Source: Tachypleus tridentatus (lineage: Eukaryota > Arthropoda > Merostomata > Xiphosura > Limulidae). From it: a DNA stretch of 64,000 bases. Both the position numbers and the translations under genes were made by a program. Location of the stretch: assembly GCF_004210375.1 (NCBI RefSeq), contig NC_134837.1, positions 14,949,798 to 15,013,797 of the forward strand, read 5' to 3'. The notes beneath the pieces were generated by a model. That model was not told the origin of the DNA. It worked only from the letters and a program-made list of their open reading frames with translations, and did not search any database. This document shows positions 8,995-64,000 of this stretch, piece after piece; positions within the stretch are counted from its first letter, which is position 1, and every line of letters starts with the position of its first letter.

Positions 8995-10865
8995 CTGCAA
9001 TGAGATAAAAAATTATACATACATAAATATAAAAAATGGTTTATGGAAAGGAAAAAAAATTGTACACTAAACAAATAAAGGAAAGTTAATGCCCAATAAC
9101 AAAACAACACTTTTAAATTAACATTTACTGGATCAAGAACTTTGGACAAATAAAAACTCAAAGAAGTATTAGTTAGTACCTGAGAAGAAATGAACTAAAA
9201 TACAATAAATGGTTACTGATAGAACAATTTTACAGGGGTCAGGGGTCAAAAGTTAAGGCACCACATTTATGGACTCACACTCAAAATTTTACCCAACCAC
9301 TGTCTTATAAATGTATGTCAGTAAGTTTGATATCAAATAATAATTCAAATTTTAGTATTATACACAAGTTACTTTCTTAATTTCAAAGTAAATATTAAAA
9401 AACTGACACCAAAGTATCAATGTGTGTGGGTCATTTGGTATGTCCAATGTAACATTGGTTTGAATTAATGTTCACGTACAATGTATAATTTCTCATGAAT
9501 TCAAGACAAATTACCAACAGCGATAAGTTTGACATAGAATAAGAATCTACCACCTTTTCTATTTGCCAAAATACTACTATATTTAGCAAATCAAAGCAGC
9601 CCTACCCACTTCTTCCACTTCTTTGGAAATAATTCCTTACATACACTGCTTTGCTACTTTATGGCCTTATGTATAAACAATCAAAAGCTCAAAACTCCTC
9701 TCATGAATTTTTTTTTTTACCTTGTTGAAGGTTCCTAAGATTTGTTCTTTTTGTCTTGTATTTAACAAAGAAATAGTAAATGAAAATGTCTGAAATTTCA
9801 TAACATTTAGAATCAAATACAACTTAATTTCTAGACCTAAAAATTACAGTAGATATCTGTCATTCATATAGTAATTGATTTTTTGTTACTTTAAAATTGA
9901 TATATAAAAAAACCGAAACAAATTACTTTGTTTCACATCCACTACATGCAAAACATGACAAGACTGTGCACATAATTGTAAGCAGCAAATTATTATAAAG
10001 TTTGTAACTTGAAGAGACAACTGTTTTCTATACTTCTTTACTTTGTGATCTATATTTTAAGAAAAATATCTAGAATTTAAAAATTTGCTTTCATGTTACA
10101 CTGGAACATTACATGTATACGTATGTGTGATGTATAATGTTAAAAAATTTAAGCTATTTAGACCAAATATTAGTTGTAATAACTTGTCTCTTTCTTTATG
10201 GTGGTTACAGGTAATATCAACCAAACCCATACAGAAATATAATATTGAAAATAACAAAATATAGTTTTTTCTAAATAAATGTGTTCAATAATTATCCACA
10301 AATTATAAATATTTTGCACGTGAAATTTGACACTTTTCTAAAAGTATTTTTAATCTTAAAAGCAAAATTACTACACATGTTGGACAATCAACATTTCAAA
10401 AGAAATAAATACGTGAGTAAATCATTATTTCACCCTTTCACAACAGGTTCGGTATGATACACGAGTTCATCTACACATATGCATATTATGTATTTGCACT
10501 ATAACTTTTGATACAGCATGTGTATCTTCACAACATTTGGTAGACTTTTAGTAAAGATTACACATTTTTATGTTCTCAAAAGAACGTATTTTTTTTCTTA
10601 AGTATTTTTATTTTAGATTTGTTTGTGAAAATAGTTGTATTACCAGTCCAAGTGCAAAGTAATTTCATGTTATAATTAAAATCTATCATTTGTCACCAGA
10701 ATCTCAATTATTATTTCTGTAATCTCTAAAACCTCCTCAGTACATCTCAAATAATTGTTTTCAACAAGACTTTATACTGTATTTTACATACTCAACCATG
10801 TGGAGTCTGTCAACTAATCAACCTCATAACCACCATAAAAAACTAGAAATATAACATAGGTTAAC
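8995..10865. other. hnRNP M intron, no gene seen
   Basis: This is AT-rich sequence upstream of the Gly/Met exon. No further RRM exon could be recognised on the minus strand. From about 10440 there are stretches similar to the old long repeat family (see 43106-44290), such as the words around TAATCTCTAAAACCTCCTCAG. Confidence 0.4.
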
Positions 10866-16097: not shown

Positions 16098-16379
16098 GTT
16101 TTGTGTTTGTTTTGGAAATTCGCACAAAGCTACACGAGGGCTATCTGTGCTAGCCGTCCCTAATTTAGCAGTGTAAGACTAGAGGGAAGGCAGCTAGTCA
16201 TCACCACCCACCGCCAACTCTTGGGCTACTCTTTTACCAACGAATAGTGGGATTGACCGTCACTTTATAATGCCCCCACGGCTGAAAGGGCGAGCATGTT
16301 TGGCGCGACGGGGATGCGAACCCGCGAGCCTCAGATTACAAGTCGCACGCCTTAACGAGCTTGGCCATGCCGGGCCTGA
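16098..16379 (-). mobile_element. tRNA-derived SINE, family A, best copy
   Basis: The element is read on the minus strand. It starts GGCCCGGCATGGCCAAGCTC, continues with an A-box-like TTAAGGCGTGCGAC, a loop CTTGTAATC with a TGT-like anticodon, and a B box GGGTTCGCATCCC, all in tRNA order. A tRNA-unrelated body follows. The tail ends CAGATAGCCCTCGTGTAGCT then TTGTGCGAATT. It is flanked by an imperfect duplication (GATAATATTTT at 16087-16097, GAGAATATTTT at 16380-16390). Confidence 0.9.
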
Positions 16380-28619: not shown

Positions 28620-28761
28620 ATACCATTAAAAATTACTTGATTGGTCATTTTAAAGACTTGACATATTTAAACATACACAGATTACTTATTACTTTATGTT
28701 ACTGACTTTTTACCCTTCACTAAGCATATGAATGTAAAGGTAGAAACTCAAAATTACTTAC

Positions 28762-30719
28762 TTCTTGTTGCTTTTGAGTCATTTCATGATGTTGAATTTT
28801 TTCTGACAAACATTCACACAAGACTGTTTTTTCTTCTAGTATTTTCTCAACATCTTTTAAATTTGTTTCTAGATTTTTCTTATTTTTCACAATATGCTGA
28901 ATATTTGATTTTAATTCCCGAGACTTTTCCACAATAATTTTTTGTGATTCGTCCTCTAATCCTATTTCAAATGCTAATCCATTAAACACTACCTTAACAT
29001 TATCCAGCTGGCATTTCAGATATTTATTTTCACCTTTTAAATTCTCCACTTGAGAACTGACATCTTGAAGATACTGTTTTGTTACTTTCAATTGGGACTC
29101 AATATCTTCTTTATTTTTGGTCAAGTGTGAGAGAAATTCATTATTTCTTGCCTTTTCAATTTTCAGATCCTCCTTCTCAGAAATCAACATATTATTTTCT
29201 TTGTTAATTATTTCAATATTTTCTTACGAACTGGTTATATCTAACTGCAATGTACTAATCTTATCCATAAAATATACTTTCTCACTTGATATCTCTTCAG
29301 CTTGCTTAACTAAAGAGCTTTTTTCTTTCTTAATTGTTTCAATCAATTTTTTTAATTCCATCATTTCTGTGTGAATGCTTTCTTTTTCTTCTTAGAGCTG
29401 CTGTTTTTCTAACTGATAATTCTTAATTTGAAAAGAAAGATTTTCAACATCAGCAGACTTATTCTGAAGCTCTATGCTGCATTTTTCCATTTCCAAATAA
29501 ATTCTTCTATTCTCTTTGCAGACCATTTCATGTTCAGTTTCTAAATCATATAATTTAGCTTTCAATTTATCTTTTTCTTCAATCAGACAACTTTTATTTT
29601 TAACTTCTACAATTAACTTGTAATTAAAAGTATCATTTTTTTTCATTTAATCTTGCAACTTCCTCTTCAAGATGAGTCATCTGAGAAAGTAATGTTTGTT
29701 TTTCACAGATTAATTTATCCTGGGTTGTCTGCATTTCTTTGACACTGGACTGGAACATTTCATTTTCTTTTTGTGCAAATGAAATTTTATTATTTTCATC
29801 ACAGAGCTCTACTTGTAATTTTTTTCTTTGCATTCAAAAGCAAAACTATCTCTTTTTTTAGATTTCCTACAATTTCCTGAACAACACTATACTTTTTTTT
29901 ACGAGGTCTTCATTTTCTCTCTGTAAGGCTGCAATTTTAATTTCAAATTCACCATTTGCAAGGTATTCTTTTCAATTCTCCACTTGATCACTCAATAAAT
30001 TATCTTTTTGTTCATTTTCTGACAAATCTTTATTTCCTTCAAAACATTCTGCATTTCTTAAATGTAATAGTTTACTTTTATCCTTCTTAAAGTTTTCTAA
30101 AACTTCTTGAATACTATAAATTTGTTTCGTTATTTGTTTATTTTTTCTTTGCAAATCTTATTTCAAGTTTATATCTTTTATTTAAAATAAGTTGTTTTTG
30201 ATTTTCAAGATCTGACAGTTTCTCCTTTATTAATGAACCTGTTTCATTTTTCCTTTCATTGTTCATATTTTCTAGTGACTTGTACTGTTGATATAAAACA
30301 CTTTCTTCTTTCAAAACTTCATCCAATTCTTGCTCAATTTCCTGATATTTCCATTTCCATATTTCCTTTTCATTTAAAGCATTTTTAAGTTCTGCAGAAA
30401 TCTCTTCTATTTTACACTCTAAAGCAATTAAGTCTATTTTTTCATATTCTTCTTTCAGCTTTGAATAATTTTCATTCAATGTTTCCTTTTCACTGATCAA
30501 AGTAGAAACACTGTTTTCTAATGTTGCCACCTTAGAATTCATTAACTCTTGTTCTTGGATAACACTTAATAGATGAAACTTGTCTCTTTCTTTTTATTCT
30601 TTTAAATCATGGTTTTCACCAACAATACTTGAATTTTGTTTTAAGAGTTCTGCATTTTCTTTTGTTACACACTCAAATTTAATTTCAAGTTCTTCAAGCT
30701 GCTTTTTAAGACCTTCCTC
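28762..30719 (-). pseudogene. KIF20B: KIF20B-like long coiled-coil exon, about eight breaks
   Basis: This is a single exon of 1958 bp with acceptor ...tttactcttttag and a strong donor GTAAGT. It encodes about 650 residues of Glu/Lys/Leu-rich coiled coil from EEGLKKQLEELEIKFECVTK to SEKIQHHEMTQKQQE. The longest open pieces are 30138-30542, 29392-29646 and 28720-29190. Stops lie at 30594, 29972, 29392 and 29224. Single-base shifts lie near 30150, 29885, 29830 and 29640, each in an A-rich run. The net excess of two bases over a multiple of three agrees exactly with those shifts. Confidence 0.7.
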
Positions 30720-43105: not shown

Positions 43106-44290
43106 TATATTTGGTTAACTTAAATAGCTTAATGCTTGCAATAGTATACACCTGTTTCAACTTAAATGTTATTTTATTGATTTATGAGCCATGTACAATT
43201 AAAAATCCCACCACATAAGTTTTAAATCAATTGGCAAATGTCTAGCTCACCTCAATGTATCAAATTAAATAATGCATGAGCTAGTTATAACCACACCCCA
43301 TTAGGAAGATTATTATTCTTTGTCTAACCTAACAAGTTCCTAATTTTTATAATTCAGTTACTTTTGTAATAAATGTAACATGTCATTTGATAGATTAACA
43401 CTTTGGTCATTAATTGTTTATGAAAAATTCGGTACAAGACATCAGTGAAGTGTTGGCAATTTGTTAAAGAGAATGTGACAGCTGTGTGTGGAAAGTGGGG
43501 TCTGATTTTCCAGTTTATCACTCCATAAACAAATAAGACTGACGGATATATATTGTAATGAACAATTTACGTTAAATTCTGTACCTGTTTCAGAGGTGAT
43601 AAATTAGAGAAGAGGGAAAACCTACAGAGCAAATGTTACAAATTTTTATAACAGGATAGATTGAGAATTTTTTCAAGCATCACTTTCAAACATAAATAAT
43701 ATTAAACTTTCATTTATTAACTATGCCACATTTATTCATACACAATAATAAAAATTTAACTCTCATTACAGATCCCATCCATTTGACCAAGTTCATGACC
43801 CTAAATTGACGTTTATAATTTCCATACTAAAACTTGAAAAATTTTGTCTATCTTGTAGAGGGAGAAGAAAAACGTTAATGAGGTATTTTCACTAAAGATT
43901 TCTCCATTACTATATGGAGTCAAAGGGTTAACTGTTTTAGTAATTTTTATATTAATATTAAAAATACATTTCTTCTTCACCTGAAAAATCTAAAATTTCA
44001 TTTGCATTATTTCTAAAATCTCCAAAATAGTTTTAAAACTGTTGTTCCTGTAAAACTTTATATATCATTATTTTCTCTACTTTCACACAATTTGAGGTTG
44101 GTATTTCACATACCTTGTGACCATCAAAGAACATATTTAAATTACCTTTTGTCTTTTCAAAATGACTTCAGATTATAACATGAAACATTCATTTCACTTA
44201 AATAGCTTTAATTTCATAACAATATACATCTGTTTATACCTAAATGTTACTGTTTCATTGCTTTTGAACCTTGACTAAATTATATTAAAT
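43106..44290 (+). repeat. Old long AT-rich repeat family, best copy
   Basis: It contains, in order, the blocks seen singly elsewhere: TCTAGCTCACCTCAATGTAT (43240), CGGTACAAGACATCAGTGAA (43430), GTCTGATTTTCCAGTTTATC (43500), GGAAAACCTACAGAGCAAAT (43620), TTCATGACCCTAAATTGACG (43793), TCATTTGCATTATTTCTAAA (43998) and GACTTCAGATTATAACATGA (44164). No protein domain was recognised in any frame. Confidence 0.55.
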
Positions 44291-44298
44291 TACATTGT

Positions 44299-45455
44299 GC
44301 TCAAGCTGGTTGATTAATTGATTGATTTAGTGTTTTATGGCACAAAGCAGCGAGGCTATCTGCGCCAGACATTCGGTAAAAATGTAAAAAAAAATAAAAA
44401 TAAATAAATAAATGTAGTAATAGACATAAATGGAAATAAAGGTAAACCAAAAAAGTATAAAACCAATGTTGACACCTAGTCTACAATGTTAAGATAGAAG
44501 GCAGAGTATAAGAAGTTGTAAGGTATTTACTCTAGCAAAAAGGTAATGATCATAACCCGCCAGGAAGATTAACAGGTAAGTTCAAGAACCACCGTCAATC
44601 ACCTGAAGTTGGCCTTTCCAGTCCTGGTTCCGGGTTATGTGTCATAGCAGCTATTATCAAAATGTAAAAGAATAAAAGTTTTAAAAGACACTCCGCAAAA
44701 TCGTAATAATGAGTAGCCAAATCTCCAGTAAAAAGATAAAGTCAAGTAAATGGAGTAAAATTTGTAAAAGTAAATGAAGGTAAAAACAAAACAGCAATTA
44801 AAACAGAAAATGGTGTAAAAACCAATGGTGACATCCAGTCTTCAAATTTGTAAAATATTTACTCTAGCAAAATGTTAATGATCATAACCCACCAGGAAGA
44901 CTAACAGGTAAGTTCAAGAACCACCGTCAATCACCTGAAGTTGGCCTTTCCAGTCCTGGTTCCGGGTTATGTGTCATAGCAGCTATTATCAAAATGTAAA
45001 AGAATAAAAGTTTTAAAAGACACTCCGCAAAATCGTAATAATGAGTAGCCAAATGTCCAGTAAAAAGATAAAGTCAAGTAAATGGAGTAAAATTTGTAAA
45101 AGTAATTGAAGATAAAAGCAAAATGGCAATTAAAACAGAAAATGGCGTAAAAACCAATGTTGACATCCAGTCAACAAAGTTGTAAAGAACTACCTGTAGC
45201 AGAATGGTAATGATCGTAACCCGCCAGGAAGACTAACAGGTAAGTATAAAAACCACCGTCAGTCACCTGAAGTTGGTCTTTCCAGTCCTGGTTCCGGGTT
45301 ATGAGTCAATATGGCCAGTACTTAAAAGTTAAGTAGTAAAAGTGTGAAATGATATGCAGCAAAAGTATAATAACAACTCGCCAGGATGACTAACGAGTAG
45401 TTCAAACGGATAGTTCAAACAGGAGCGTTAGTCACCTGAAGTTGGCCTTTCAAAT
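44299..45455 (-). mobile_element. LINE 3' ends in tandem, 332-bp period, about three units
   Basis: The left end (GATTTAGTGTTTTATGGCAC, AAAGCAGCGAGGCTATCTGC) is the LINE 3' terminus seen at 4233 and 34401. The 3' UTR block starting AATGATCATAACCC recurs at 44545, 44877 and 45209, spaced 332 bp. A last, more diverged piece ends at GTTGGCCTTT near 45450. Here the first unit of the tRNA array follows directly. No ORF2 sequence is present. Confidence 0.85.
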
Positions 45456-47754
45456 GAAGTAGATAACGGCAAGAGCGACAGAGGAAACATAAGGAAAAGA
45501 ACATCACGTTCACGGTTTATAAACCTTCGTCGACATTTTTAAATTTGATTTTGAAACGCAGTTACTTTTTAACTAACGATATAACTAACTATTCTTTTTT
45601 CATATTTGAAATGCGACTGAACTGTTTTGGAGCAATTAACATATATTTTCCTTTTTTTCTTTATCTTTGTTTTCTATTCTTACTTGTTTTTACCAGAGCT
45701 GTTAGACAGAATGATTCAGAAGTAAACAATCAAAAAGTACGGTAAATTTTGTTACGATTTCTTGTACAATAAAACTTTCCTCTATTCCTTTGGCTTTGTG
45801 AATAAAACGTAATTAATTTTTGTGCAGATTAGTTCAAACTTAAAAAATCTATAACTTCCTGATGAATGAGAGAGTTCAAATAGATACGTATGGCACACTA
45901 CTCAAATAAAGAGTTTTCAAAACGTTTCTTTTCCTTTTTTGACACAATTCGACGATGTTATTGTTTACCACGGAATAAAACTCGTAGTGTGAACTCTTGG
46001 GACATTAACGAAATGTTAGTTGGAAACTTTGGACGAGTCAAAAAAAAGTCTTACAATTCTCGGTAAACTTATGATTACATATTTTGTATACATTATGAAT
46101 AATTTAATTTGCTCGTGTTATTTTGTTGGTGAACGAAACTGTAAGTTTAAGTGGTTTAATGACAAAAAGGTTTGATTATTCCCTTTGAAAACGTAAGGTA
46201 TTTTGTAGACACCTGTCACATGAAACGTCTCTAATTTTAGTAACTTTGTAAATACTCTGTCAACAATATACGATATTTGACTTAAGAGTGAAATTTCCGT
46301 GTAATACAGTAAACGAACTAAAGAATGACGTTTTGAAACTTCCTATTAAATTCGAAAAATTTGTAATAAATTATTACCATTTTTTTCTATAAAGAATGAT
46401 AATGTCCTACTGAGAAAAGTGTTGCGATTCTTTGTGTTTACTGTTTCGCTTGTAAAACTACGTTAAATTTATAGAAATTGTCATATCATCCAGAGGAATG
46501 CCGTTGAACATAAAATCAGCGTTACTTCTATAATACATTTACAAGTGAACTTGTATTGTGAATATATTTTATTCGTAAATTATGTAGGTTCACAGAGAAA
46601 ATCATACAAAGTTAGTTAACGTAATTCACACATTCCCAACTTAGATTATTGAAACTAAACGCATTCCTTACTTTCCTTGTTTATCACTATTTTCATCATA
46701 ATATAATTTCGTATATTCACCTTTATATTCTGATTTCTCTAATTTGTGAAAATGACATTTTAATAGCCTTTATTCTCACACATCTATAAGGCGAAAAACA
46801 TTCCTCGGTGAAACTAAACAGTTTATACATTTATTGTATGGAAGTGTATATTAGTTTTGATTGATACAGAAACATCTTCGTTTCACCTTGTTTTCTTGAT
46901 ATTTCTTCTAACTTTGAAATTTCACTGGGATCTCTCAATGGAGTGGAACAAAGAGTAATGATTTACAAGCTTTATGTGAAACCGCAAGACTATAGTTTAT
47001 GGAATTTCACACGTGCCTTTCTTTGCGATGTTAAGTGAAAAGAAAAACATTGTAGCAGAGCGTGGTTTCGATCCACGGACCTCTGGGTTATGGGCCCAGC
47101 ACGCTCCCACTGCGCCACTCTGCTTCGTTTTTCTATGTCTACTATAAAGGTTCATAAAACAAATACTTAATGTTATAGAACATTTATTTTGGTTCTCCAT
47201 AACAACTACGTGTTTCGAACGTGTAAATTGTTGTATTCATAAATTTTGTATCCTATCGAAATAACTTCAGAAATAATTATCGCTATCGGGATATTTCCGT
47301 ACTCTTCTACTCACATCGTTGTTTAATTTTCTGGAAACGGTCAAAAGTGTTGACATAATGAAGAAACGACAAAATTTTGGCTTTCCCATTATACGTCTAT
47401 TTGACCTATTTCAAGTCCATCAAACATCCAATACTTGTTATTAAACGAAATTTAAAATAGTGTGATTTTTTTATATTCAACGATATCTGCGTTACAAGCG
47501 ATTTCGAAACTGACGACAAACACGCATTTCAAGGATATTTAATATTCTGATATTATATTGATGTGTAAGAAATAGGGAGAAAATTCCATACGAATATCTT
47601 TTTTCAATATGTCAAAAGTCCCGCTAGGTCTGAACTTTATGAAGTGTGATGCTTTCTTGAAAGTGTTGAGATGTCGTCGATTAAAAGTTTAGAAGTAAAA
47701 CAAGGTAGAGTAAAAGCAAAGAATGAAGATTTGTTTTTCAAATAATACGAAAAT
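45456..47754 (-). repeat. Array unit 1
   Basis: This is the first complete unit. Its left edge touches the LINE fragment with shared TTTCAAAT, and it lacks the 11 bases that precede GAAGTAG in the other units. Confidence 0.94.
47053..47124 (-). tRNA. Initiator tRNA-Met (CAT), copy 1
   Basis: The 72-nt gene starts AGCAGAGTGGCGCAGTGGGA and has the anticodon arm CTGGGCCCATAACCCAG. Its three G-C pairs and CAT anticodon are the initiator hallmarks. The T arm loop is ATCGAAA, and the acceptor AGCAGAG/CTCTGCT starts with the eukaryotic initiator A1-U72 pair and ends with discriminator A. There is no intron. The internal A and B boxes (TGGCGCAGTGGGA, GGATCGAAACC) are intact. TTTTT lies about ten bases after the 3' end as RNA polymerase III terminator. 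Confidence 0.97.
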
Positions 47755-50053
47755 GAAGTAAATAACGACAAGAGCAACAGAGGAAACATAAGGAAAAGAA
47801 CATCACGTTCACGGTTTATAAACCTTCGTCGACATTTTTAAATTTGATTTTGAAACGCAGTTACTTTTTAACTAACGATATAACTAACTATTATTTTTTC
47901 ATATTTGAAATGCGACTGAACTGTTTTGGAGCAATTAACATATATTTTCCTTTTTTCTTTATCTTTGTTTTCTATTCTTACTTGTTTTTACCAGAGCTGT
48001 TAGACAGAATGATTCAGAAGTAAACAATCAAAAGTACGGTAAATTTTGTTACGATTTCTTGTACAATAAAACTTTCCTCTATTCCTTTGGCTTTGTGAAT
48101 AAAACGTAATTAATTTTTGTGCAGATTAGTTCAAACTTAAAAAATCTATAACTTCCTCATGAATGAGAGAGTTCAAATAGATACGTATGGCACACTACTC
48201 AAATAAAGAGGTTTCAAAACGTTTCTTTTCCTTTTTTGACACAATTCGACGATGTTATTGTTTACCACGGAATAAAACTCGTAGTGTGAACTCTTGGGAC
48301 ATTAACGAAATGTTAGTTGGAAACTTTGGACGAGTCAAAAAAAAGTCTTACAATTCTCGGTAAACTTATGATTACATATTTTGTATACATTATGAATAAT
48401 TTAATTTGCTCGTGTTATTTTGTTGGTGAACGAAACTGTAAGTTTAAGTGGTTTAATGACAAAAAAGGTTTGATTATTCCCTTTGAAAACGTAAGGTATT
48501 TTGTAGACACCTGTCACATGAAACGTCTCTAATTTTTAGTAACTTTGTAAATACTCTGTCAACAATATACGATATTTGACTTAAGAGTGAAATTTCCGTG
48601 TAATACAGTAAACGAACTAAAGAATGACGTTTTGAAACTTCCTATTAAATTCGAAAAATTTGTAATAAATTATTACCATTTTTTTCTATAAAGAATGATA
48701 ATGTCCTACTGAGAAAAGTGTTGCGATTCTTTGTGTTTACTGTTTCGCTTGTAAAACTACGTTAAATTTATAGAAATTGTCATATCATCCAGAGGAATGC
48801 CGTTGAACATAAAATCAGCGTTACTTCTATAATACATTTACAAGTGAACTTGTATTGTGAATATATTTTATTCGTAAATTATGTAGGTTCACAGAGAAAA
48901 TCATACAAAGTTAGTTAACGTAATTCACACATTCCCAACTTAGATTATTGAAACTAAACGCATTCCTTACTTTCCTTGTTTATCACTATTTTCATCATAA
49001 TATAATTTCGTATATTCACCTTTATATTCTGATTTCTCTATTTTGTGAAAATGACATTTTAATAGCCTTTATTCTCACACATCTATAAGGCGAAAAACAT
49101 TCCTCGGTGAAACTAAACAGTTTATACATTTATTGTATGGAAGTGTATATTAGTTTTGATTGATACAGAAACATCTTCGTTTCACCTTGTTTTCTTGATA
49201 TTTCTTCTAACTTTGAAATTTCACTGGGATCTCTCAATGGAGTGGAACAAAGAGTAATGATTTACAAGCTTTATGTGAAACCGCAAGACTATAGTTTATG
49301 GAATTTCACACGTGCCTTTCTTTGCGATGTTAAGTGAAAAGAAAAACATTGTAGCAGAGCGTGGTTTCGATCCACGGACCTCTGGGTTATGGGCCCAGCA
49401 CGCTCCCACTGCGCCACTCTGCTTCGTTTTTCTATGTCTACTATAAAGGTTCATAAAACAAATACTTAATGTTATAGAACATTTATTTTGGTTCTCCATA
49501 ACAACTACGTGTTTCGAACGTGTAAATTGTTGTATTCATAAATTTTGTATCCTATCGAAATAACTTCAGAAATAATTATCGCTATCGGGATATTTCCGTA
49601 CTCTTCTACTCACATCGTTGTTCAATTTTCTGGAAACGGTCAAAAGTGTTGACATAATGAAGAAACGACAAAATTTTGGCTTTCCCATTATACGTCTATT
49701 TGACCTATTTCAAGTCCATCAAACATCCAATACTTGTTATTAAACGAAATTTAAAATAGTGTGATTTTTTTATATTCAACGATATCTGCGTTACAAGCGA
49801 TTTCGAAACTGACGACAAACACGCATTTCAAGGATATTTAATATTCTGATATTATATTGATGTGTAAGAAATAGGGAGAAAATTCCATACGAATATCTTT
49901 TTTCAATATGTCAAAAGTCCCGCTAGGTCTGAACTTTATGAAGTGTGATGCTTTCTTGAAAGTGTTGAGATATCGTCGATTAAAAGTTTAGAAGTAAAAC
50001 AAAGTCGAGTAAAAGCAAAGAATGAAGATTTGTTTTTCAAATAATACGAAAAC
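47755..50053 (-). repeat. Array unit 2
   Basis: Complete unit. Its first bases (GAAGTAAATAACGACAAGAG) carry small differences from the others. Confidence 0.94.
49352..49423 (-). tRNA. Initiator tRNA-Met (CAT), copy 2
   Basis: Identical over its 72 nt to copy 1, with the same T-run terminator. Confidence 0.97.
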
Positions 50054-52354
50054 AAAGTAGATAACGGCAAGAGCGACAGAGGAAACATAAGGAAAAGAAC
50101 ATCACGTTCACGGTTTATAAACCTTCGTCGACATTTTTAAATTTGATTTTGAAACGCAGTTACTTTTTAACTAACGATATAACTAACTATTCTTTTTTCA
50201 TATTTGAAATGCGACTGAACTGTTTTGGAGCAATTAACATATATTTTCCTTTTTTCTTTATCTTTGTTTTCTATTCTTACTTGTTTTTACCAGAGCTGTT
50301 AGACAGAATGATTCAGAAGTAAACAATCAAAAAGTACGGTAAATTTTGTTACGATTTCTTGTACAATAAAACTTTCCTCTATTCCTTTGGCTTTGTGAAT
50401 AAAACGTAATTAATTTTTGTGCAGATTAGTTCAAACTTAAAAAATCTATAACTTCCTCATGAATGAGAGAGTTCAAATAGATACGTATGGCACACTACTC
50501 AAATAAAGAGGTTTCAAAACGTTTCTTTTCCTTTTTTGACACAATTCGACGATGTTATTGTTTACCACGGAATAAAACTCGTAGTGTGAACTCTTGGGAC
50601 ATTAACGAAATGTTAGTTGGAAACTTTGGACGAGTCAAAAAAAAGTCTTACAATTCTCGGTAAACTTATGATTACATATTTTGTATACATTATGAATAAT
50701 TTAATTTGCTCGTGTTATTTTGTTGGTGAACGAAACTGTAAGTTTAAGTGGTTTAATGACAAAAAAGGTTTGATTATTCCCTTTTGAAAAACGTAAGGTA
50801 TTTTGTAGACACCTGTCACATGAAACGTCTCTAATTTTTAGTAACTTTGTAAATACTCTGTCAACAATATACGATATTTGACTTAAGAGTGAAATTTCCG
50901 TGTAATACAGTAAACGAACTAAAGAATGACGTTTTGAAACTTCCTATTAAATTCGAAAAATTTGTAATAAATTATTACCATTTTTTTCTATAAAGAATGA
51001 TAATGTCCTACTGAGAAAAGTGTTGCGATTCTTTGTGTTTACTGTTTCGCTTGTAAAACTACGTTAAATTTATAGAAATTGTCATATCATCCAGAGGAAT
51101 GCCGTTGAACATAAAATCAGCGTTACTTCTATAATACATTTACAAGTGAACTTGTATTGTGAATATATTTTATTCGTAAATTATGTAGGTTCACAGAGAA
51201 AATCATACAAAGTTAGTTAACGTAATTCACACATTCCCAACTTAGATTATTGAAACTAAACGCATTCCTTACTTTCCTTGTTTATCACTATTTTCATCAT
51301 AATATAATTTCGTATATTCACCTTTATATTCTGATTCCTCTATTTTGTGAAAATGACATTTTAATAGCCTTTATTCTCACACATCTATAAGGCGAAAAAC
51401 ATTCCTCGGTGAAACTAAACAGTTTATACATTTATTGTATGGAAGTGTATATTAGTTTTGATTGATACAGAAACATCTTCGTTTCACCTTGTTTTCTTGA
51501 TATTTCTTCTAACTTTGAAATTTCACTGGGATCTCTCAATGGAGTGGAACAAAGAGTAATGATTTACAAGCTTCATGTGAAACCGCAAGACTAGAGTTTA
51601 TGGAATTTCACACGTGCCTTTCTTTGCGATGTTAAGTGAAAAGAAAAACATTGTAGCAGAGCGTGGTTTCGATCCACGGACCTCTGGGTTATGGGCCCAG
51701 CACGCCCCACTGCGCCACTCTGCTTCGTTTTCCTATGTCTACTATAAAGGTTCATAAAACAAATACTTAATGTTATAGAACATTTATTTTGGTTCTCCAT
51801 AACAACTACGTGTTTCGAACGTGTAAATTGTTGTATTCATAAATTTTGTATCCTATCGAAATAACTTCAGAAATAATTATCGCTATCGGGATATTTCCGT
51901 ACTCTTCTACTCACATCGTTGTTTAATTTTCTGGAAACGGTCAAAAGTGTTGACATAATGAAGAAACGACAAAATTTTGGCTTTCCCATTATACGTCTAT
52001 TTGACCTATTTCAAGTCCATCAAACATCCAATACTTGTTATTAAACGAAATTTAAAATAGTGTGATTTTTTTATATTCAACGATATCTGCGTTACAAGCG
52101 ATTTCGAAACTGACGACAAACACGCATTTCAAGGATATTTAATATTCTGATATTATATTGATGTGTAAGAAATAGGGAGAAAATTCCATACGAATATCTT
52201 TTTTCAATATGTCAAAAGTCCCGCTAGGTCTGAACTTTATGAAGTGTGATGCTTTCTTGAAAGTGTTGAGATATCGTCGATTAAAAGTTTAGAAGTAAAA
52301 CAAAGTCGAGTAAAAGCAAAGAATGAAGATTTGTTTTTCAAATAATACGAAAAC
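50054..52354 (-). repeat. Array unit 3
   Basis: Complete unit, and the one whose tRNA gene has lost a base. Confidence 0.94.
51654..51724 (-). tRNA. Initiator tRNA-Met (CAT), copy 3, one base short
   Basis: It is 71 nt and identical to the other copies except that the A before GCGTG in the D arm (position 21, a conserved purine) is absent: GCAGTGGGGCGTG instead of GCAGTGGGAGCGTG. The base lies at the edge of the A box. The anticodon and T arms are intact. It may be a damaged gene or an assembly error. Confidence 0.85.
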
Positions 52355-54652
52355 AAAGTAGATAACGGCAAGAGCGACAGAGGAAACATAAGGAAAAGAA
52401 CATCACGTTCACGGTTTATAAACCTTCGTCGACATTTTTAAATTTGATTTTGAAACGCAGTTACTTTTTAACTAACGATATAACTAACTATTCTTTTTTC
52501 ATATTTGAAATGCGACTGAACTGTTTTGGAGCAATTAACATATATTTTCCTTTTTTCTTTATCTTTGTTTTCTATTCTTACTTGTTTTACCAGAGCTGTT
52601 AGACAGAATGATTCAGAAGTAAACAATCAAAAAAGTACGGTAAATTTTGTTACGATTTCTTGTACAATAAAACTTTCCTCTATTCCTTTGGCTTTGTGAA
52701 TAAAACGTAATTAATTTTGTGCAGATTAGTTCAAACTTAAAAAATCTATAACTTCCTGATGAATGAGAGAGTTCAAATAGATACGTATGGCACACTACTC
52801 AAATAAAGAGTTTTCAAAACGTTTCTTTTCCTTTTTGACACAATTCGACGATGTTATTGTTTACCACGGAATAAAACTCGTAGTGTGAACTCTTGGGACA
52901 TTAACGAAATGTTAGTTGGAAACTTTGGACGAGTCAAAAAAAAGTCTTACAATTCTCGGTAAACTTATGATTACATATTTTGTATACATTATGAATAATT
53001 TAATTTGCTCGTGTTATTTTGTTGGTGAATGAAACTGTAAGTTTAAGTGGTTTAATGACAAAAAAGGTTTGATTATTCCCTTTTGAAAAACGTAAGGTAT
53101 TTTGTAGACACCTGTCACATGAAACGTCTCTAATTTTTAGTAACTTTGTAAATACTCTGTCAACAATATACGATATTTGACTTAAGAGTGAAATTTCCGT
53201 GTAATACAGTAAACGAACTAAAGAATGACGTTTTGAAACTTCCTATTAAATTCGAAAATTTGTAATAAATTATTACCATTTTTTTCTATAAAGAATGATA
53301 ATGTCCTACTGAGAAAAGTGTTGCGATTCTTTGTGTTTACTGTTTCGCTTGTAAAACTACGTTAAATTTATAGAAATTGTCATATCATCCAGAGGAATGC
53401 CGTTGAACATAAAATCAGCGTTACTTCTATAATACATTTACAAGTGAACTTGTATTGTGAATATATTTTATTCGTAAATTATGTAGGTTCACAGAGAAAA
53501 TCATACAAAGTTAGTTAACGTAATTCACACATTCCCAACTTAGATTATTGAAACTAAACGCATTCCTTACTTTCCTTGTTTATCACTATTTTCATCATAA
53601 TATAATTTCGTATATTCACCTTTATATTCTGATTCCTCTATTTTGTGAAAATGACATTTTAATAGCCTTTATTCTCACACATCTATAAGGCGAAAAACAT
53701 TCCTCGGTGAAACTAAACAGTTTATACATTTATTGTATGGAAGTGTATATTAGTTTTGATTGATACAGAAACATCTTCGTTTCACCTTGTTTTCTTGATA
53801 TTTCTTCTAACTTTGAAATTTCACTGGGATCTCTCAATGGAGTGGAACAAAGAGTAATGATTTACAAGCTTTATGTGAAACCGCAAGACTATAGTTTATG
53901 GAATTTCACACGTGCCTTTCTTTGCGATGTTAAGTGAAAAGAAAACATTGTAGCAGAGCGTGGTTTCGATCCACGGACCTCTGGGTTATGGGCCCAGCAC
54001 GCTCCCACTGCGCCACTCTGCTTCGTTTTCCTATGTCTACTATAAAGGTTCATAAAACAAATACTTAATGTTATAGAACATTTATTTTGGTTCTCCATAA
54101 CAACTACGTGTTTCGAACGTGTAAATTGTTGTATTCATAAATTTTGTATCCTATCGAAATAACTTCAGAAATAATTATCGCTATCGGGATATTTCCGTAC
54201 TCTTCTACTCACATCGTTGTTTAATTTTCTGGAAACGGTCAAAAGTGTTGACATAATGAAGAAACGACAAAATTTTGGCTTTCCCATTATACGTCTATTT
54301 GACCTATTTCAAGTCCATCAAACATCCAATACTTGTTATTAAACGAAATTTAAAATAGTGTGATTTTTTTATATTCAACGATATCTGCGTTACAAGCGAT
54401 TTCGAAACTGACGACAAACACGCATTTCAAGGATATTTAATATTCTGATATTATATTGATGTGTAAGAAATAGGGAGAAAATTCCATACGAATATCTTTT
54501 TTCAATATGTCAAAAGTCCCGCTAGGTCTGAACTTTATGAAGTGTGATGCTTTCTTGAGAGTAGTGAGATATCGTCCATTAAAAGTTTAGAAGTAAAACA
54601 AAGTAGAGTAAAAGCAAAGAATGAAGATTTGTTTTTCAAATAATACGAAAAT
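52355..54652 (-). repeat. Array unit 4
   Basis: Complete unit. Its far end (GAGAGTAGTGAGATATCGTC) begins to differ from the inner units. Confidence 0.94.
53951..54022 (-). tRNA. Initiator tRNA-Met (CAT), copy 4
   Basis: Identical over its 72 nt to copies 1 and 2. The downstream T run is one base shorter (TTTT). Confidence 0.97.
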
Positions 54653-55126
54653 GAAGTAGATAACGGCAAGAGCGACAGAAGAAACATGAGGAAAAGAGCA
54701 TCAATTTCACGGTTTATAAACCTTCGTCGATATTTTTAAATTTGATTTTGAAACGCAGTTACTTTTTTAACGAACGATATAACTAACTATTCTTTTTTCG
54801 TATTTGAAATGCGACTGAACTGTTTTGGAGCAATTAACATATATTTTCCTTTTTTCTTTATCTTTGTTTTCTATTCTTACTTGTTTTTACCAGAGCTGTT
54901 AGACAGAATGATTCAGAAGTAAATAATTAAAAAGTACTGTAAATTTTGTTACGATTTCTTGTATAATAAAACTTTCCTCTATTCCTTTGGCTTTGTGAAT
55001 AAAACGTAATTAATTTTTTGTGCAGATTAGTTCAAACTTAAGGAATCTATAACTTCCTGATGAATGAGAGAGTTCAAATAGATACGTATGGCACACTACT
55101 CAAATAACAAGTTTTCAAAACGTTTC
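54653..55126 (-). repeat. Array unit 5, truncated, without tRNA gene
   Basis: The first ~474 bp of the unit, with visibly more substitutions than units 1-4. It stops at AAAACGTTTC, where SINE sequence takes over. Confidence 0.93.
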
Positions 55127-55303
55127 CATCACCTCCTGCCAACTCTTGGGCTACTCTTTTATGAACGAAGACTGGGATTGAACGTCACTTTATAACTACC
55201 CCACGGCTGAGAAGGTGAGCATGTTTGGTGCAACTGGGAATCGAATCCACGCCCCTGAGATTACGAGTCGAACGCCTTATCCCACCTGGCCATGCTGAGC
55301 CAA
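55127..55303 (-). mobile_element. tRNA-derived SINE, family A, cut at the array edge
   Basis: It has the body and tRNA-like head (minus strand: GGCTCAGCATGGCCAGGTGG, B box GATTCGATTCCC-like). The tail half is missing, because the sequence changes directly into array unit 5 at 55126. The head is well kept. Confidence 0.88.
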
Positions 55304-58300
55304 GGTAAGTAATGTTTAAATCATTTTCAAACATTTTCATTTTTCACTGACCACAAACACCTAAATGTAGTATGCGATTTCATATTAATTCCAACTGAAA
55401 ATTGAAAGTAGGCATAGCATATAAATTGCGGTTTTATTCACTGTTAACGTACACAGAAATAAGCTACAAATCTTCCATTTAGTAGGTAGAGAAATTATTT
55501 ATTATAAACCACTTAATGTTTTAGTAAGAGATTATGACGGGACACGATGCCCATTGTAAGAGAAATAAAACTAACATTTTAACAGAAGCATCATGTCAAA
55601 TAATCAGTTTCAATTACATTTATATAAGTATTCCAATGATTTTCATACAAAATAATAAAAATTACGCATAAATTTTTGCAAAAGTATTCAAGCAAATTAT
55701 GAAGAATTTACAAGTTAAAGTGTATAATTGTTTATTATTTACTGATCAGATTGATGCAGTCCTGCCACCTAGTATTTAACAAAAGCTTCATCAGTTTTTA
55801 TATATATATATATACTCTCGTTCACAAATGTTTCGCGACATCACCACATTCTTGTACTAAATTTTACTTTGAACGTTTACAATAAAAATATTAAAAACAC
55901 TATATCAGCGTCATTTACACAAACATTTTATTAGTTAAACGCAACTTTACTGCAATCGAACTAAGTCTGAAATGTAAACACTATTCGAAGAAGCTTTCTG
56001 CGCAAGAAAACTCGCACATTTTAAAGATGGCGGAAATTCTTTTCTGTAGACTTTACATTTCACGCATAGCACGGTACAAGACATCAGTAATGCAGCATTG
56101 TTAACTATCAAAGTTCCCTTAGATACAGTTTTATTTTTTTAATTATTTTCGTGAGGGAATATTGCATTATCTCTCTTGAAACTGTTCAAGGCCTGAGTTA
56201 TCCTGTTACTACTCCATCAATTATTTTCCCCCCAAACAAACAGGTTTTGTTTTTATCAAGAACGGAATTAACAACTATATTTAACAGTTCGTGTTCACTT
56301 TATACAGAACATTGATGAATATAAATACTGTTTTATTAAGTGTGACCTACTTCAAACGCGAAGGCATACGAATAAAATTCTTCTCAGACTAATTACAAAT
56401 ATTAAAATAATTCAGTCCAAACCACCTTAAACAAAACATTTTATTGTCAAAAACACCGCCTACATTTATATAAAGAAGCAAGTAGTTAAAACCGCATGGG
56501 CGACAATGATATCATAATTTATGTTGAAGAACTACCAAGTTTTAGTTGTTTTTTTAAAGGATGACGTTTGGAGCTAGCGATATTTATCAGATCGGACAGT
56601 TTACAACGAAACGTTGTCCTTCTTTTAAAAAACAACAAAAAGAACTTGGCGATTGTTCAACCTACATTAACACATCCAAGCTTCACGATCGGAACACAAA
56701 TGTTTCAACAAATGTTCTTCTTGCACAAACAAAGCTTCTAAATTATCGTTATTAAAACAAGATCATGTAGTTACGTTGGTAATTCCTGAATCTAACGTTA
56801 TTTCCTCACAGCGCTTTTAGAACAGAACTAATAACAGTATCCTGAAAAATACTCAAATAGAGGTTATTTTATGCATTATAAATTATTACGTTTGATAATA
56901 TTAATTAAATGCATGAAATTACATTAAGCAACGACTACAGTTATGTAATGTACTTCTACTTATAGAAAAAAACAGTAAAAACGATCAAATTCAAACTAAT
57001 ATATCACTATGTCACACAACAAAAGTTGACAATACTTTTCCTCGTTCTTCAACATACATACATGAAGATATTTTTCTCACCTAAAATTGTTTAATTAGGC
57101 TTAATTGCTTATGTTTACAGCTTACAGCGGAATAATGAACCCATGATTTTGAGACTGTATGTACGTAAACTACATCTGCCCCTTTCACTAAATAACTAGG
57201 AAACATAACCAATCAGGTACACTTTAACCCCCCCCCAATTTAATTAATACCTAATGTTAAAGAACTTTTTAACTGCCATAACACCAAATATCTTTATAAA
57301 CCATTAACAATTACAATTTATACGAAATAATTTCAATTGACTGTTAGACTAAATAAAATCCAGACGTTGAACAACAGGACGATTTATTAGTTATGAGCCA
57401 ATCCACAGAAAATGTAAAGCCCGACTTTACGCCATCAAGCTCAAAATAAACTGATCAAAGTCGTATCCTTTACTACTGGCACACTACACAATATAATAAA
57501 TCAAAATACTTTACTACTTTATCGTTTAACGCTTACCAATATGCTAACAAAATACACATTGTAACTAACGTTACTCAACAGATTATGCTCGTATCGTATT
57601 CAAATCGTGTCTTAACAAACTAAATTACATGAAAAAATAAATTTCACATTTTAATCAATCTTTTATATTTAATTATCCTTTAATTTAATTAGTTACAGCG
57701 CTACGAAAATCTCATTTACACAAAACGTCTACTTTTGGTAGCAATAACACAAACACGACTTTAAAGTTCATATTTTTAAATAAGAATATATGGAACATTA
57801 AAATATGTTAAAATTTACTTTTAACGTATGATACTAGTTCCATCTGGTGGTCAAATATAACATGAAGAATTCGGTAAATTTTTCAATTTTTAATTGCATA
57901 AGGCGTTTAACATTTCAGAAGACGCAAGCTTTAAAATAACAAAATGTAGATTCAAACACATAGAAACATTGTATACAATGTTAAGTGATACGCCTACAAA
58001 TCAGTTCATTCTTAAAACATTTTCCTTTTCGCAATCTATTCATACAACTTTAATATACATCGGTATAAAAAGTTTTCAATATTATTTTATAAAGCACAAA
58101 ATAATCTTTTAAACATTTTACAGAAATTTTTTTAGAATTTTCTCCATGTGATGTGGACATTGTTGCTTGCCGAAACCATTTTTGTTTTAATGACTGTGCT
58201 GCCACCTAAGAGAAACTTCAAGCAAGATTTTTCAAACAGTCCAGACTGTAAAATCTTTCATTTATATAATTTTAATATTGAATAATTGCGACCTTCAAAC

Positions 58301-59329
58301 TCAGCAATGAATTTAATATGACATTACTGTGAAAATTAAACCTGTAAACACACACACACAGAAATATTAATACAAACAAAATAATCACATGCAAGTTAAT
58401 TCTCAATTCATTCGAAAATATACTTTAACTGAAAATTAAATTACGTAATAATATACAAGTGCTATAAAACTATTCAAACTAAATAAGTTCGAACGAAGAA
58501 CAAAAATTTATTCTTAGGTGGCAATTTTTTTTAATCAAATTTGCAGTTAGCGACAAGAATGTTGATTAATTAAAGTATATGATTACGCTTGTTACTACGA
58601 GCTGTATTACCGCTCTTACAAAGTTCTTAGAAACTTGTTGTCAAAAGAGCAACTTTTTTTTGCCAAGAACAAAGCTACACAATAATCTAACACCGCGAAT
58701 ATCGAAATCTAACTTTCCACTTTTGCAACTCCTTTGAATGAGCAATCTTCTCTAAGACTATACAACAAGATAGAGAAAACAGTGAAAATAACTTACCTAA
58801 TCACTTACCTATTTTTATCTGCCCATCCGTGAACTATATTTTCCTTGTGAAGAGACGAATCCTTAGGCAACCAGTACAATGGGTTGAAATTGTTTTCCAA
58901 AATCAAAACAGCTTTCGAGTGCAATTTTTTTAAATTCCCACACAATACATTAAATAACCTTACGCTTCACACTGACAGCAGTAAGACCAACTACTGTTAG
59001 TGCGATTTCCAATATCCAAAGCAACCAATTCAAAACTTCGTCACGAGTAACAACCCCTTCGTATTATTTAACAAAAAAAAATTAATAATGACAGTCCGAT
59101 AACAGCGCCACAGAACTGAATTATTTAATAGAAGTCACTGCTTTTCTTCTAGGTTAAAAAAAATTCTTTTAAACGCTACAACTTCAAAAACCAATAATGA
59201 ACGATATAGAATTTAATATTTGATAAAAAGTATTCTTGTGCAAATAAAGTTGATACAACCTATCCAAAGACAACGTTTAAAAAAAAAGCTATATATACAC
59301 AATTATCAAACCAAAGAAAATCTTAGCGC
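55304..59329. other. No gene recognised; CpG retained
   Basis: AT-rich sequence with noticeably more CG dinucleotides than the left half of the window. Small open frames (for example 56561-56755 and 57894-58112, plus strand) have no recognised homology. AAGATGGCGG at 56024-56033 resembles a YY1-type site around an ATG, but nothing else supports a promoter. Confidence 0.35.
55799..55814. repeat. (TA)n microsatellite
   Basis: Eight TA dinucleotides. Confidence 0.9.
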
Positions 59330-62708: not shown

Positions 62709-64000
62709 AATGAACTACTAAGCTGTTTAGGACTATTTCATAACAACACATGATCATGAAAGTTTGAAAACAGACGAACAAAAGAAGCTATCATTCCTGT
62801 GTGCAGTCAGCAGACGTGATACAATTTTGTTTTGTGGAAATAGTTAAATCGTTGCAGGTAATCATCAATAATAAATTACTTTCCGTGTATGACACTTTGA
62901 AACTGACGAATCTTATCAGAGAACAAATTTGATTATACATTCACACGAACTCTTAACTCTGGTTAAACCCTTTATGAACTCGCATTTGTGTTCGTAACTG
63001 GACCTTAAAATGCTGCCTCCTACAAAAGATGCAGTACTGTACAACATGCTTACAGCTATCTTTCAGGCTACAATGTGGGTTAGAAATGATGTGACAATGC
63101 CAGATCTTTTTCTGATTGACTGAATGAACACAAACTGTATGTAGCTATTGTTGAAAATACCTTATCTGGTAACTGTAGAAAATGGTGGTATAAATCTGAA
63201 AAATTACTATTTTACAATGGTTCATGTAAGTGTAGGAAAATGTAGAAATGGTTGGTAAACCAGGACAGAAACAGATAAAGAACAATTTTAAGACAATCTT
63301 GTGTTCATATTGATGAGCAAAATGTAAAACTATGGAAACAAAGAAACTGATTTGGTGAAATATGAGAAAAACTTGTATACAAGGAAGGACATAATGATTT
63401 AAAGATATCAAAAAATGTCATAAATTCAAGGACAACAGGCAATGAAAGCCTTACAATGTAGATAACATATGGTCCACGAGCCCGTAAGTGAAGACCACCA
63501 TTATTGTCCTAGTGTCACAAGGTGTCTTAAGTCTTTTCAGCAATTGATGACAAACTCAAGTGTTTAGAATTCAAAAAATGATTCTATATTAAATTCATAC
63601 CTACTAGGATGAACAAAACTTTAAAATTATGAAATCTGACTAAATTTGATGGCCATTTTGGATTTTTAACCACTTTCAAAAGGACAAATATTTTGCCACT
63701 ATTCAGATTCATAGCATATTAAAAAAAATTACATTTTGGTAACAAAGTAGTGGATATTTTTTCGAAGCAGGCTCCTAGACTATTTCTGTTAAGTTTCCAT
63801 TGTTTCCCCAATCTCAATTTTTTTTTGGTTAGAACAATAACACCCAACACTAAGACCAATAACTATGCATAACTGAGATTATTAGATATATATTTCAGAG
63901 ACTCTAGAAAGAAGACTGTTCTTCAGTGAGACCAAATATGAAAATAAAAGCCAACAAGTTAGCTGATTATAATGTTGTTCCTACTAAATAAAGATTTATC
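62709..64000. repeat. Right copy of the long direct repeat
   Basis: Matches 1-1294 throughout, with a handful of differences such as a 3-bp deletion in the ATTATT run near 62875 and a longer T run near 63825. It continues beyond the window. Confidence 0.95.

Follow-up and report, generated by a model that had tools for sequence, protein, structure and literature searches.

A 64,000-nt stretch of the Tachypleus tridentatus genome (NC_134837.1; hereafter the window) holds near-identical 2.3-kb units set head to tail, each with an initiator tRNA-Met gene. This raises the question of whether these units stand alone in the genome, and of what keeps them alike. The reading favored here, to which we give a probability of about 0.8, is that the window array belongs to a family of initiator tRNA-Met arrays found at several loci of one large chromosome, of which it forms a single block.

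Organization of the array

The initial annotation, made from the letters of the window, had described four near-identical 2.3-kb units with one initiator gene each, and this tandem array is real, as ARAGORN, Rfam and the alignment of the units all confirmed. It occupies window positions 45452-55126 and consists of four full units of 2298-2301 bp, followed by a 478-bp partial unit. The full units, of type A as defined below, are arranged head to tail, each with a single initiator tRNA-Met gene on the minus strand: unit 1 (45452..47750, 2299 bp), unit 2 (47751..50049, 2299 bp), unit 3 (50050..52350, 2301 bp) and unit 4 (52351..54648, 2298 bp). Partial unit 5 (54649..55126, minus strand) lacks the tRNA gene and is 95.4-96.6% identical to units 1-4. 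Among the full units, pairwise identity over aligned bases was 99.2-99.6%, with 10-18 substitutions per pair. Their alignment contains 36 variable columns, 13 of them indel-related and many of these at homopolymers; copy number and single-base indels depend on one assembly.

Identity of the tRNA genes

ARAGORN, run on the whole window, detected four tRNA-Met (CAT) genes, all on the minus strand and all with the anticodon and the tRNA fold, and no other tRNA gene. Copy 1 (47053..47124; ARAGORN 47052-47124) is 72 nt long, carries G at position 20 (G20), and is identical in sequence to copy 2 (49352..49423; ARAGORN 49351-49423) and copy 4 (53951..54022; ARAGORN 53950-54022). Copy 3 (51654..51724; ARAGORN 51653-51724) is 1 nt short in the D loop, the absent base being A21 by our reading. 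The initial description thus stands as to the four genes, but has to be corrected in that copy 3 lacks one nucleotide and in that the array is not isolated in the genome (see below). All four copies were placed by ARAGORN, Rfam and the sequence itself. Rfam scored copies 1, 2 and 4 at 57.7 bits and copy 3 at 41.7 bits (gathering score 29), and a faster Rfam run over the whole window returned three tRNA matches, copy 3 being absent. Minimum-energy folding gave no cloverleaf for copy 1, with z-scores of -1.6 (copy 1) and -1.5 (copy 3).

An A1:U72 pair and a GGG:CCC anticodon stem are features of eukaryotic initiator tRNAs, and the sequences of the window genes carry both, together with the T-loop residues A54 and A60. 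The latter two residues are likewise initiator features, and A20 of the D loop is reported for the eukaryotic initiator elbow, in the accessible text of the sources (PMC10602860, PMC9362929). The window genes have G20 at this position. Since all the remaining sequence features examined were present, the genes are still called eukaryotic initiator tRNA-Met genes on the basis of sequence, with G20 as an exception.

A T run follows each gene on the minus strand: T5 after copy 1 (47043..47047), T5 after copies 2 and 3, and T4 after copy 4 (53942-53945). The annotation had assigned a pol III terminator to each unit; the T4-T5 runs are indeed there, and their role as terminators is putative. Upstream of copy 1, at a distance of 16-24 bases, lies TTTATAGTA (47140..47148, minus strand), a candidate element that recurs in the remaining three window units; those units of types B and C that were read have it too. 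No RNA family other than tRNA was detected by Rfam up to E = 1 in window positions 44000-56500, and no non-tRNA RNA gene at gathering thresholds in the window and in loci L015, L047, L048, L049, L050, L052 and L053. Ten ORFs yielded no Pfam match above the curated cut-off, one ORF had no PDB match, and for one a search of 742 candidates at E 0.001 gave no relative.

A family of arrays on one chromosome

The assembly from which the window derives (2.17 Gb) was searched for exact matches to a 35-nt pattern, the reversed pattern giving 0 matches as a control. The search identified 84 initiator genes, 72 with G20 and 12 with A20. All 72 G20 genes, a minimum since only exact matches are counted, map to contig C13, at 9.5, 14.8-15.0 and 170 Mb, and the 12 A20 genes map to contigs C1, C8 and C11, with none on C13. 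Array blocks occur in both orientations at several places on C13. The four units of the window are thus a small part of a larger family.

Forty out of 40 scored matches (138 candidates) were 100% identical. In another set, a mismatch was found in 14 of 100 among the matches listed, with 17 further matches beyond the list. Damaged copies include an anticodon-stem change common to three units, as well as other one-base changes, and three units of locus L015 scored 57.7, 54.6 and 45.3 bits in Rfam. Intact G20 genes and A20 genes score alike, at 57.7 bits.

Unit types and the contrast between gene and spacer

Three unit types, A, B and C, of 2.30, 2.34 and 2.82 kb, were distinguished on C13, with type C homologous over nearly the whole length of A and B. 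Identity was mostly 97-99.9% within types and approximately 72-90% between them, varying with copy and aligner. In a comparison of 30 tRNA-centered copies, drawn from 40 matches, type A comprised 10 copies (98.6-99.7% identity) and type B 20, of which 18 were 98.3-99.9% identical. The two outliers matched the rest of type B at 96.4-97.8% (L028) and about 90% (L046), perhaps because their flanks run out of the array. Identity between A and B was 87.4-89.9%, save for L046 (about 82%).

When one unit per type was compared, the spacers differed at 255 of 2199 (11.6%), 565 of 2156 (26.2%) and 533 of 2198 sites (24.2%), whereas the gene differed at 0 of 72. At those spacer rates, the probability of 72 unchanged sites would be 1.4e-4, 3e-10 and 2e-9, respectively, assuming independence of sites. 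This contrast, as read from the sequence, suggests that selection keeps the gene but does not act to preserve the spacer as such. The earlier statement that the gene is no better preserved than the unit around it therefore holds inside one array but fails between types. Three diverged unit types with one constant gene provide an internal control that separates homogenization from selection. Two blocks of at least 90% three-way identity over 40 columns were considered as conserved non-tRNA elements; since 29% of permutations equaled this result, no such element is claimed.

Units are alike within a type but not between types, which points to local exchange that homogenizes whole units, as the initial annotation had proposed, and the site patterns in the window agree with it. 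Eight substitution columns in units 1-4 divide the units two against two, five as 12|34 and three as 14|23, alternating along the unit; column 742, one of the eight, adjoins an indel, and columns 4 and 5 possibly record a single event. In simulations on a strict tree, with branch lengths of our choosing, three conflicts arose in 0 of 20000 runs and two in 13. Such conflict points to exchange among the window units. Over about 475 sites, the partial unit at the edge shows 16-22 differences from each of units 1-4, and units 1-4 differ from one another at 2-8. Head-to-tail likeness of whole units, and likeness greater within than between loci, with exchange, are the marks of concerted evolution, and the arrays show both. 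Type B is common to two regions separated by 5 Mb, which resemble each other in their flanks as well.

Alternative explanations

The 10-18 substitutions that separate full units could simply reflect recency, the array being a young tandem duplication with no ongoing exchange. This is highly improbable given the conflicting site patterns and an edge unit more diverged than the inner ones; besides, blocks of one type are rather uniform, for A and B even when they lie in opposite orientations, yet the spacers differ between types by 11.6-26.2%. It is very unlikely that unresolved haplotypes or misjoined repeats have inflated the copy number. Loci L015 and L016 lie 5.3 Mb from each other and yet align colinearly across 10 kb, flanks included, with 98.7% identity; homopolymer indels between units are frequent, and window segment 28720-30593 is duplicated on C13 at 97%, all of which would fit an assembly artefact. 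However, three types with such spacer divergence are poorly explained as alleles, units carry private substitutions, one contig has blocks of either orientation at several positions, and five of five stretches checked were free of N.

Whether the G20 arrays are decaying satellites carrying a former tRNA gene is a question raised by the damage in window copy 3, the shared anticodon-stem change, the 45.3-bit copy in L015 and the departure from A20. Decay is nevertheless unlikely: the 72-nt gene is identical in the compared A, B and C units despite spacer divergence of up to 26%, the 40 scored matches are all identical, and intact G20 genes score as A20 genes do. Moreover, according to the accessible text of the yeast work, exchanging residues 20 and 60 left m1A58 formation unaffected.

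Proposed origin and maintenance

For a maintained family of arrays, the order of events that we infer would begin with the tandem multiplication of an ancestral unit, about 2.3 kb long, that had a single G20 initiator gene. Copies of the array would then have reached three or more regions of the same chromosome, some blocks being inverted, and the copied blocks would have diverged into types A, B and C. Within a region, units may be kept alike by unequal crossing-over and gene conversion, while purifying selection on the initiator tRNA would hold the 72-nt gene constant across types as the spacer drifts. Pol III probably transcribes most copies from their internal A and B boxes. The arrays may supply initiator tRNA dosage, and would tolerate some defective members, copy 3 among them. 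It is rather doubtful that there is a dual initiator system, in which the few dispersed A20 genes would serve general needs while at least 70 arrayed G20 genes would be regulated separately, perhaps as an oocyte or early-embryo supply, the two gene forms differing at position 20 alone. The restriction of G20 to arrays allows tRNA sequencing to ask whether arrayed and dispersed initiator genes differ in use, and G20 itself allows one to ask whether the need for A20 suggested by the yeast structure holds elsewhere.

Comparison with known tDNA arrays

The 3.18-kb tDNA repeat of Xenopus laevis is a tandem animal unit that includes initiator tRNA-Met genes, and it carries several different tRNA genes, in contrast to the single gene found here. 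The human tDNA variable-number tandem repeat at 1q23.3 (7.3-kb units) and its mouse counterpart (7.6 kb) are a further parallel of long tandem units in animals (PMC4041453). As described in the available part of that report, the human units are 98% alike, GC-rich and CTCF-bound, with five tRNA genes of several kinds, and human-mouse conservation is limited to the tRNA genes and the CTCF site. Here, by contrast, every examined A, B and C unit has one tRNA gene instead of several kinds, the units are AT-rich and of three types, their blocks are spread along a single chromosome, and apart from the gene no element was conserved among them beyond what chance would give.

The same report considers homogeneous tDNA repeats uncommon outside Entamoeba, in agreement with the rarity asserted in the initial annotation (PMC4041453). 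Almost all tRNA genes of this protist lie in tandem arrays, with up to five genes per unit, versus one here, and short tandem repeats between them, and concerted evolution was regarded as the most likely cause of their homogenization (PMC2652664, in the part available). In a survey of animals, whose accessible text names Entamoeba as the sole case of tRNA tandem repeats then reported, tRNA gene clusters were common in some species, e.g., zebrafish and Nematostella; clusters were defined there by genes less than 1 kb apart, so the present units would not count (PMC2888827). No tandem array of single initiator genes in an animal was found in the tRNA-array literature, judged by title and start of abstract and with incomplete coverage. 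Tandem tDNA arrays are thus known, and what is unusual here is that each unit has a single initiator gene, that the copies are so many, and that G20 is confined to the arrays.

Edges and flanks

Near the left edge of the array lies a 332-bp tandem repeat (44513..45308, strand undefined), and a 40-bp stretch 82.5% like it terminates at that edge. The right edge cuts a SINE-like element (55127..55312, end approximate, minus strand) with a tRNA-like head by eye, in which ARAGORN called no tRNA. Target-site duplication was considered at the edges; the longest word common to the compared stretches had only 6 bases. Beyond, a segment at 57356..59270 (plus strand) has an 89% relative adjoining a type B array at C13:9.457 Mb. 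As sequence neighboring the arrays is also duplicated, part of the spread of the family would be segmental duplication. Further SINE-like copies occur in the window at 16202, 27631 and 41549.

The initiator tRNA-Met array of the window

ARAGORN, run over the whole window, detected four tRNA-Met genes, all on the minus strand, and no other tRNA. The genes are carried by four units arranged head to tail (2299, 2299, 2301 and 2298 bp), the first starting at 45452; a partial unit of 478 bp, devoid of a gene, follows and ends at 55126. The full units are 99.2-99.6% identical to each other, and the partial unit is 95.4-96.6% identical to them; the unit was not found elsewhere within the 64-kb window by BLAST. 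Thus, the array proposed in the initial annotation, with one initiator gene in each of four units, was confirmed by ARAGORN, Rfam and unit alignment. The Rfam tRNA score was 57.7 bits for three genes and 41.7 bits for copy 3 (gathering score 29), which was absent from a faster whole-window Rfam run. The D loop of copy 3 is one base short (A21, as read from the sequence), which may reflect either damage to the gene or an error in sequencing. The window genes carry A1:U72, the GGG:CCC anticodon stem and A54/A60, as read from the sequence, with a T4-T5 run downstream and TTTATAGTA upstream, at 16-24 bases.

A G20 gene family on the contig carrying the window

The window corresponds to C13:14949798-15013797 in an assembly of 2.17 Gb and 205 contigs. 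A search with the unit, in which the best 3 of 70 candidates were scored, returned at least 14 matches: four inside the window, plus ten of 86% identity that fall in C13:9.459-9.467 and 14.799-14.807 Mb. With the 72-nt gene, at least 40 matches were obtained (best 40 of 138 candidates scored), all on C13 and 100% identical. Genome-wide, 84 sites fitted an exact 35-nt gene pattern in which positions 16 and 20 were free to vary, and none fitted the reversed control. G at position 20 of the tRNA (G20) was present in 72 of the 84. These 72 all lie on C13, where 32 fall at 9.461-9.770 Mb, 18 at 14.801-15.004, 12 at 170.183-170.217 and 10 at 170.677-170.703; one of them has A at position 16. The window array is not isolated, with at least 72 G20 copies on C13 that fit this pattern exactly. 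The remaining 12 matches carry A20 (10 on C1, one on C8 and one on C11).

A search with the last 50 nt at the 3' end of the gene, allowing up to three mismatches, yielded 117 matches. Among the 100 listed, 86 were exact (12 on C1, C8 and C11 together; 30, 19, 13 and 12 in the C13 regions) and 14 had one mismatch (C1 three, C4 one, C13 ten); among the matches found with this 3' part only, position 20 was read in window copy 3. The C4 match (C4:64314199-64314248) is an initiator-like sequence outside C1, C8, C11 and C13.

Full-length reading of four A20 genes (two from C1 and one apiece from C8 and C11) showed identity to the array gene at 71 of 72 positions, the sole difference being position 20. 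According to BLAST, the similarity of their loci to the array units does not extend beyond the gene and a few dozen bases next to it. The two C1 genes (L048, C1:33007500-33013999) are 5.3 kb apart and the 1203 bp around them are 96% alike, so that these A20 genes too lie within a longer duplication; in this pair, local multiplication thus extends to ordinary initiator genes. In the available text of PMC10602860 and PMC9362929, the unusual residues in the elbow of the initiator are given as A20, A54 and A60, and one of the two describes that m1A58 formation in yeast tRNAs is unaffected by the addition or removal of A20/A60. G20 may accordingly be tolerated.

Gene and spacer among unit types

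Of the 40 gene matches, the 30 with flanking DNA were compared. Type A comprises 10 copies, 98.6-99.7% alike, from the window array and an inverted array at 14.913-14.938 Mb. Type B comprises 20, of which 18 are 98.3-99.9% alike; the single copies L028 and L046 are 96.4-97.8% and about 90% identical to other type B copies, respectively. Identity between types A and B is 87.4-89.9% (about 82% for L046). Type C, found at 170.18 Mb (L047, C13:170182000-170189999), has a 2.82-kb unit with copies 99.3-99.5% alike; its homology with A and B covers nearly their full length, and it carries an extra 0.47 kb or so, absent from both. A shorter form of 1.82 kb, with copies 97.3% alike, occurs at 170.68 Mb (L051, C13:170683500-170688499).

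When one unit per type was taken and the three were aligned together, the spacer differed at 255/2199 (A-B), 565/2156 (A-C) and 533/2198 (B-C) sites, whereas the gene differed at 0/72 in each pair. Taking sites as independent, the probability of an unchanged gene at spacer rates is 1.4e-4, 3e-10 and 2e-9, respectively. No further conserved block beyond chance was detected in this alignment, the two blocks observed being reached in 29% of permutations. The initial claim that the spacer is kept as well as the gene thus holds inside one array, but not between types, where the gene alone stands out. Since the gene is unchanged between types with diverged spacers, equal conservation within an array reflects homogenisation, or youth. 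That G20 is preserved in all three types hints at a use of the arrayed genes.

Signs of exchange between units

Eight substitution columns split the four full units two against two, with the pattern 12|34 in five (columns 4, 5, 742, 1292 and 1688) and 14|23 in three (413, 466 and 2263), and the two patterns alternate along the unit. All four combinations are present among conflicting columns, so duplication without exchange would need repeated mutation. Simulation along a strict tree with self-chosen branch lengths gave three conflicts in none of 20000 runs, two in 13 and one in 523. Of the eight columns, 742 adjoins an indel, and 4 and 5 possibly represent a single event; taken alone, the case for exchange among the window units is therefore good without being overwhelming.

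Against units 1-4, the partial edge unit shows 16-22 differences over about 475 sites, compared with 2-8 among these units themselves. The same trend was found in the inverted type A array (L052), where identity to unit 1 falls towards the array end from 98.3% to 92.1% and then 84.6-89.5%. Greater edge divergence would be the expected outcome of exchange within an array. The left neighbour of the window array is a 40-bp stretch 82.5% like the 332-bp tandem repeat at 44513-45308; on the right the array meets a SINE-like element that is cut at 55127 and has further copies at 16202, 27631 and 41549. One-mismatch copies at C13:9587475, 9589811 and 9758264 have an identical anticodon-stem change in all three, and hence defects may also spread between units, as if by exchange.

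Duplicated surroundings of the arrays

The window flank at 57356-59270 has an 89% relative adjoining the type B array near 9.457 Mb (L015, positions 1-1975). This relative is itself similar, in inverted orientation, to parts of L052 that lie next to the inverted type A array (88.8% and 90.7%). Window positions 57251-57600 match L052 in direct orientation (91%), and a coiled-coil coding segment at 28720-30593 (minus strand) has relatives at C13:14898669-14900511 (97%) and C10:41313931-41315799 (95%). Colinearity at 98.7% over 10 kb, flanks included, links the stretches at 9.457 and 14.798 Mb. The array thus lies in segmentally duplicated surroundings, which accounts for some of the dispersal of blocks. 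A duplicated neighbourhood also leaves room for assembly error behind some blocks, above all at 14.8 Mb, but neither assembly error nor segmental duplication would readily explain three unit types.

Comparison with known tDNA arrays

Tandem tDNA arrays are already known, the Xenopus tDNA repeat reportedly among them. The present case is set apart by having one initiator gene in each unit, by three unit types spread over several blocks of a single chromosome, and by a G20 form confined to the arrays. In the available text of PMC4041453, each 7.3-kb unit of the human 1q23.3 array holds five tRNA genes, and alleles have 9-43 units that are 98% alike; between this array and its mouse counterpart the genes are kept and the spacer is not, as occurs here between unit types. 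According to the same text, homogeneous tDNA repeats are uncommon except in Entamoeba, which the accessible part of a 2010 survey gives as the sole reported case (PMC2888827).

Other features of the window

A Gly/Met-rich open frame at 8510-9040 (minus strand), which by eye we take to resemble the hnRNP M repeat, had no relative at E 0.001 among 742 candidates. Broken open frames at 4662-6210 (minus strand) resemble a non-LTR retrotransposon, and their endonuclease-like piece (5156-5380) scored 22.2 bits with Pfam Exo_endo_phos, under the cut-off of 24.5. Near-identical open frames at both window ends, 248-804 and 62953-63508 (minus strand), are probably a repeat.
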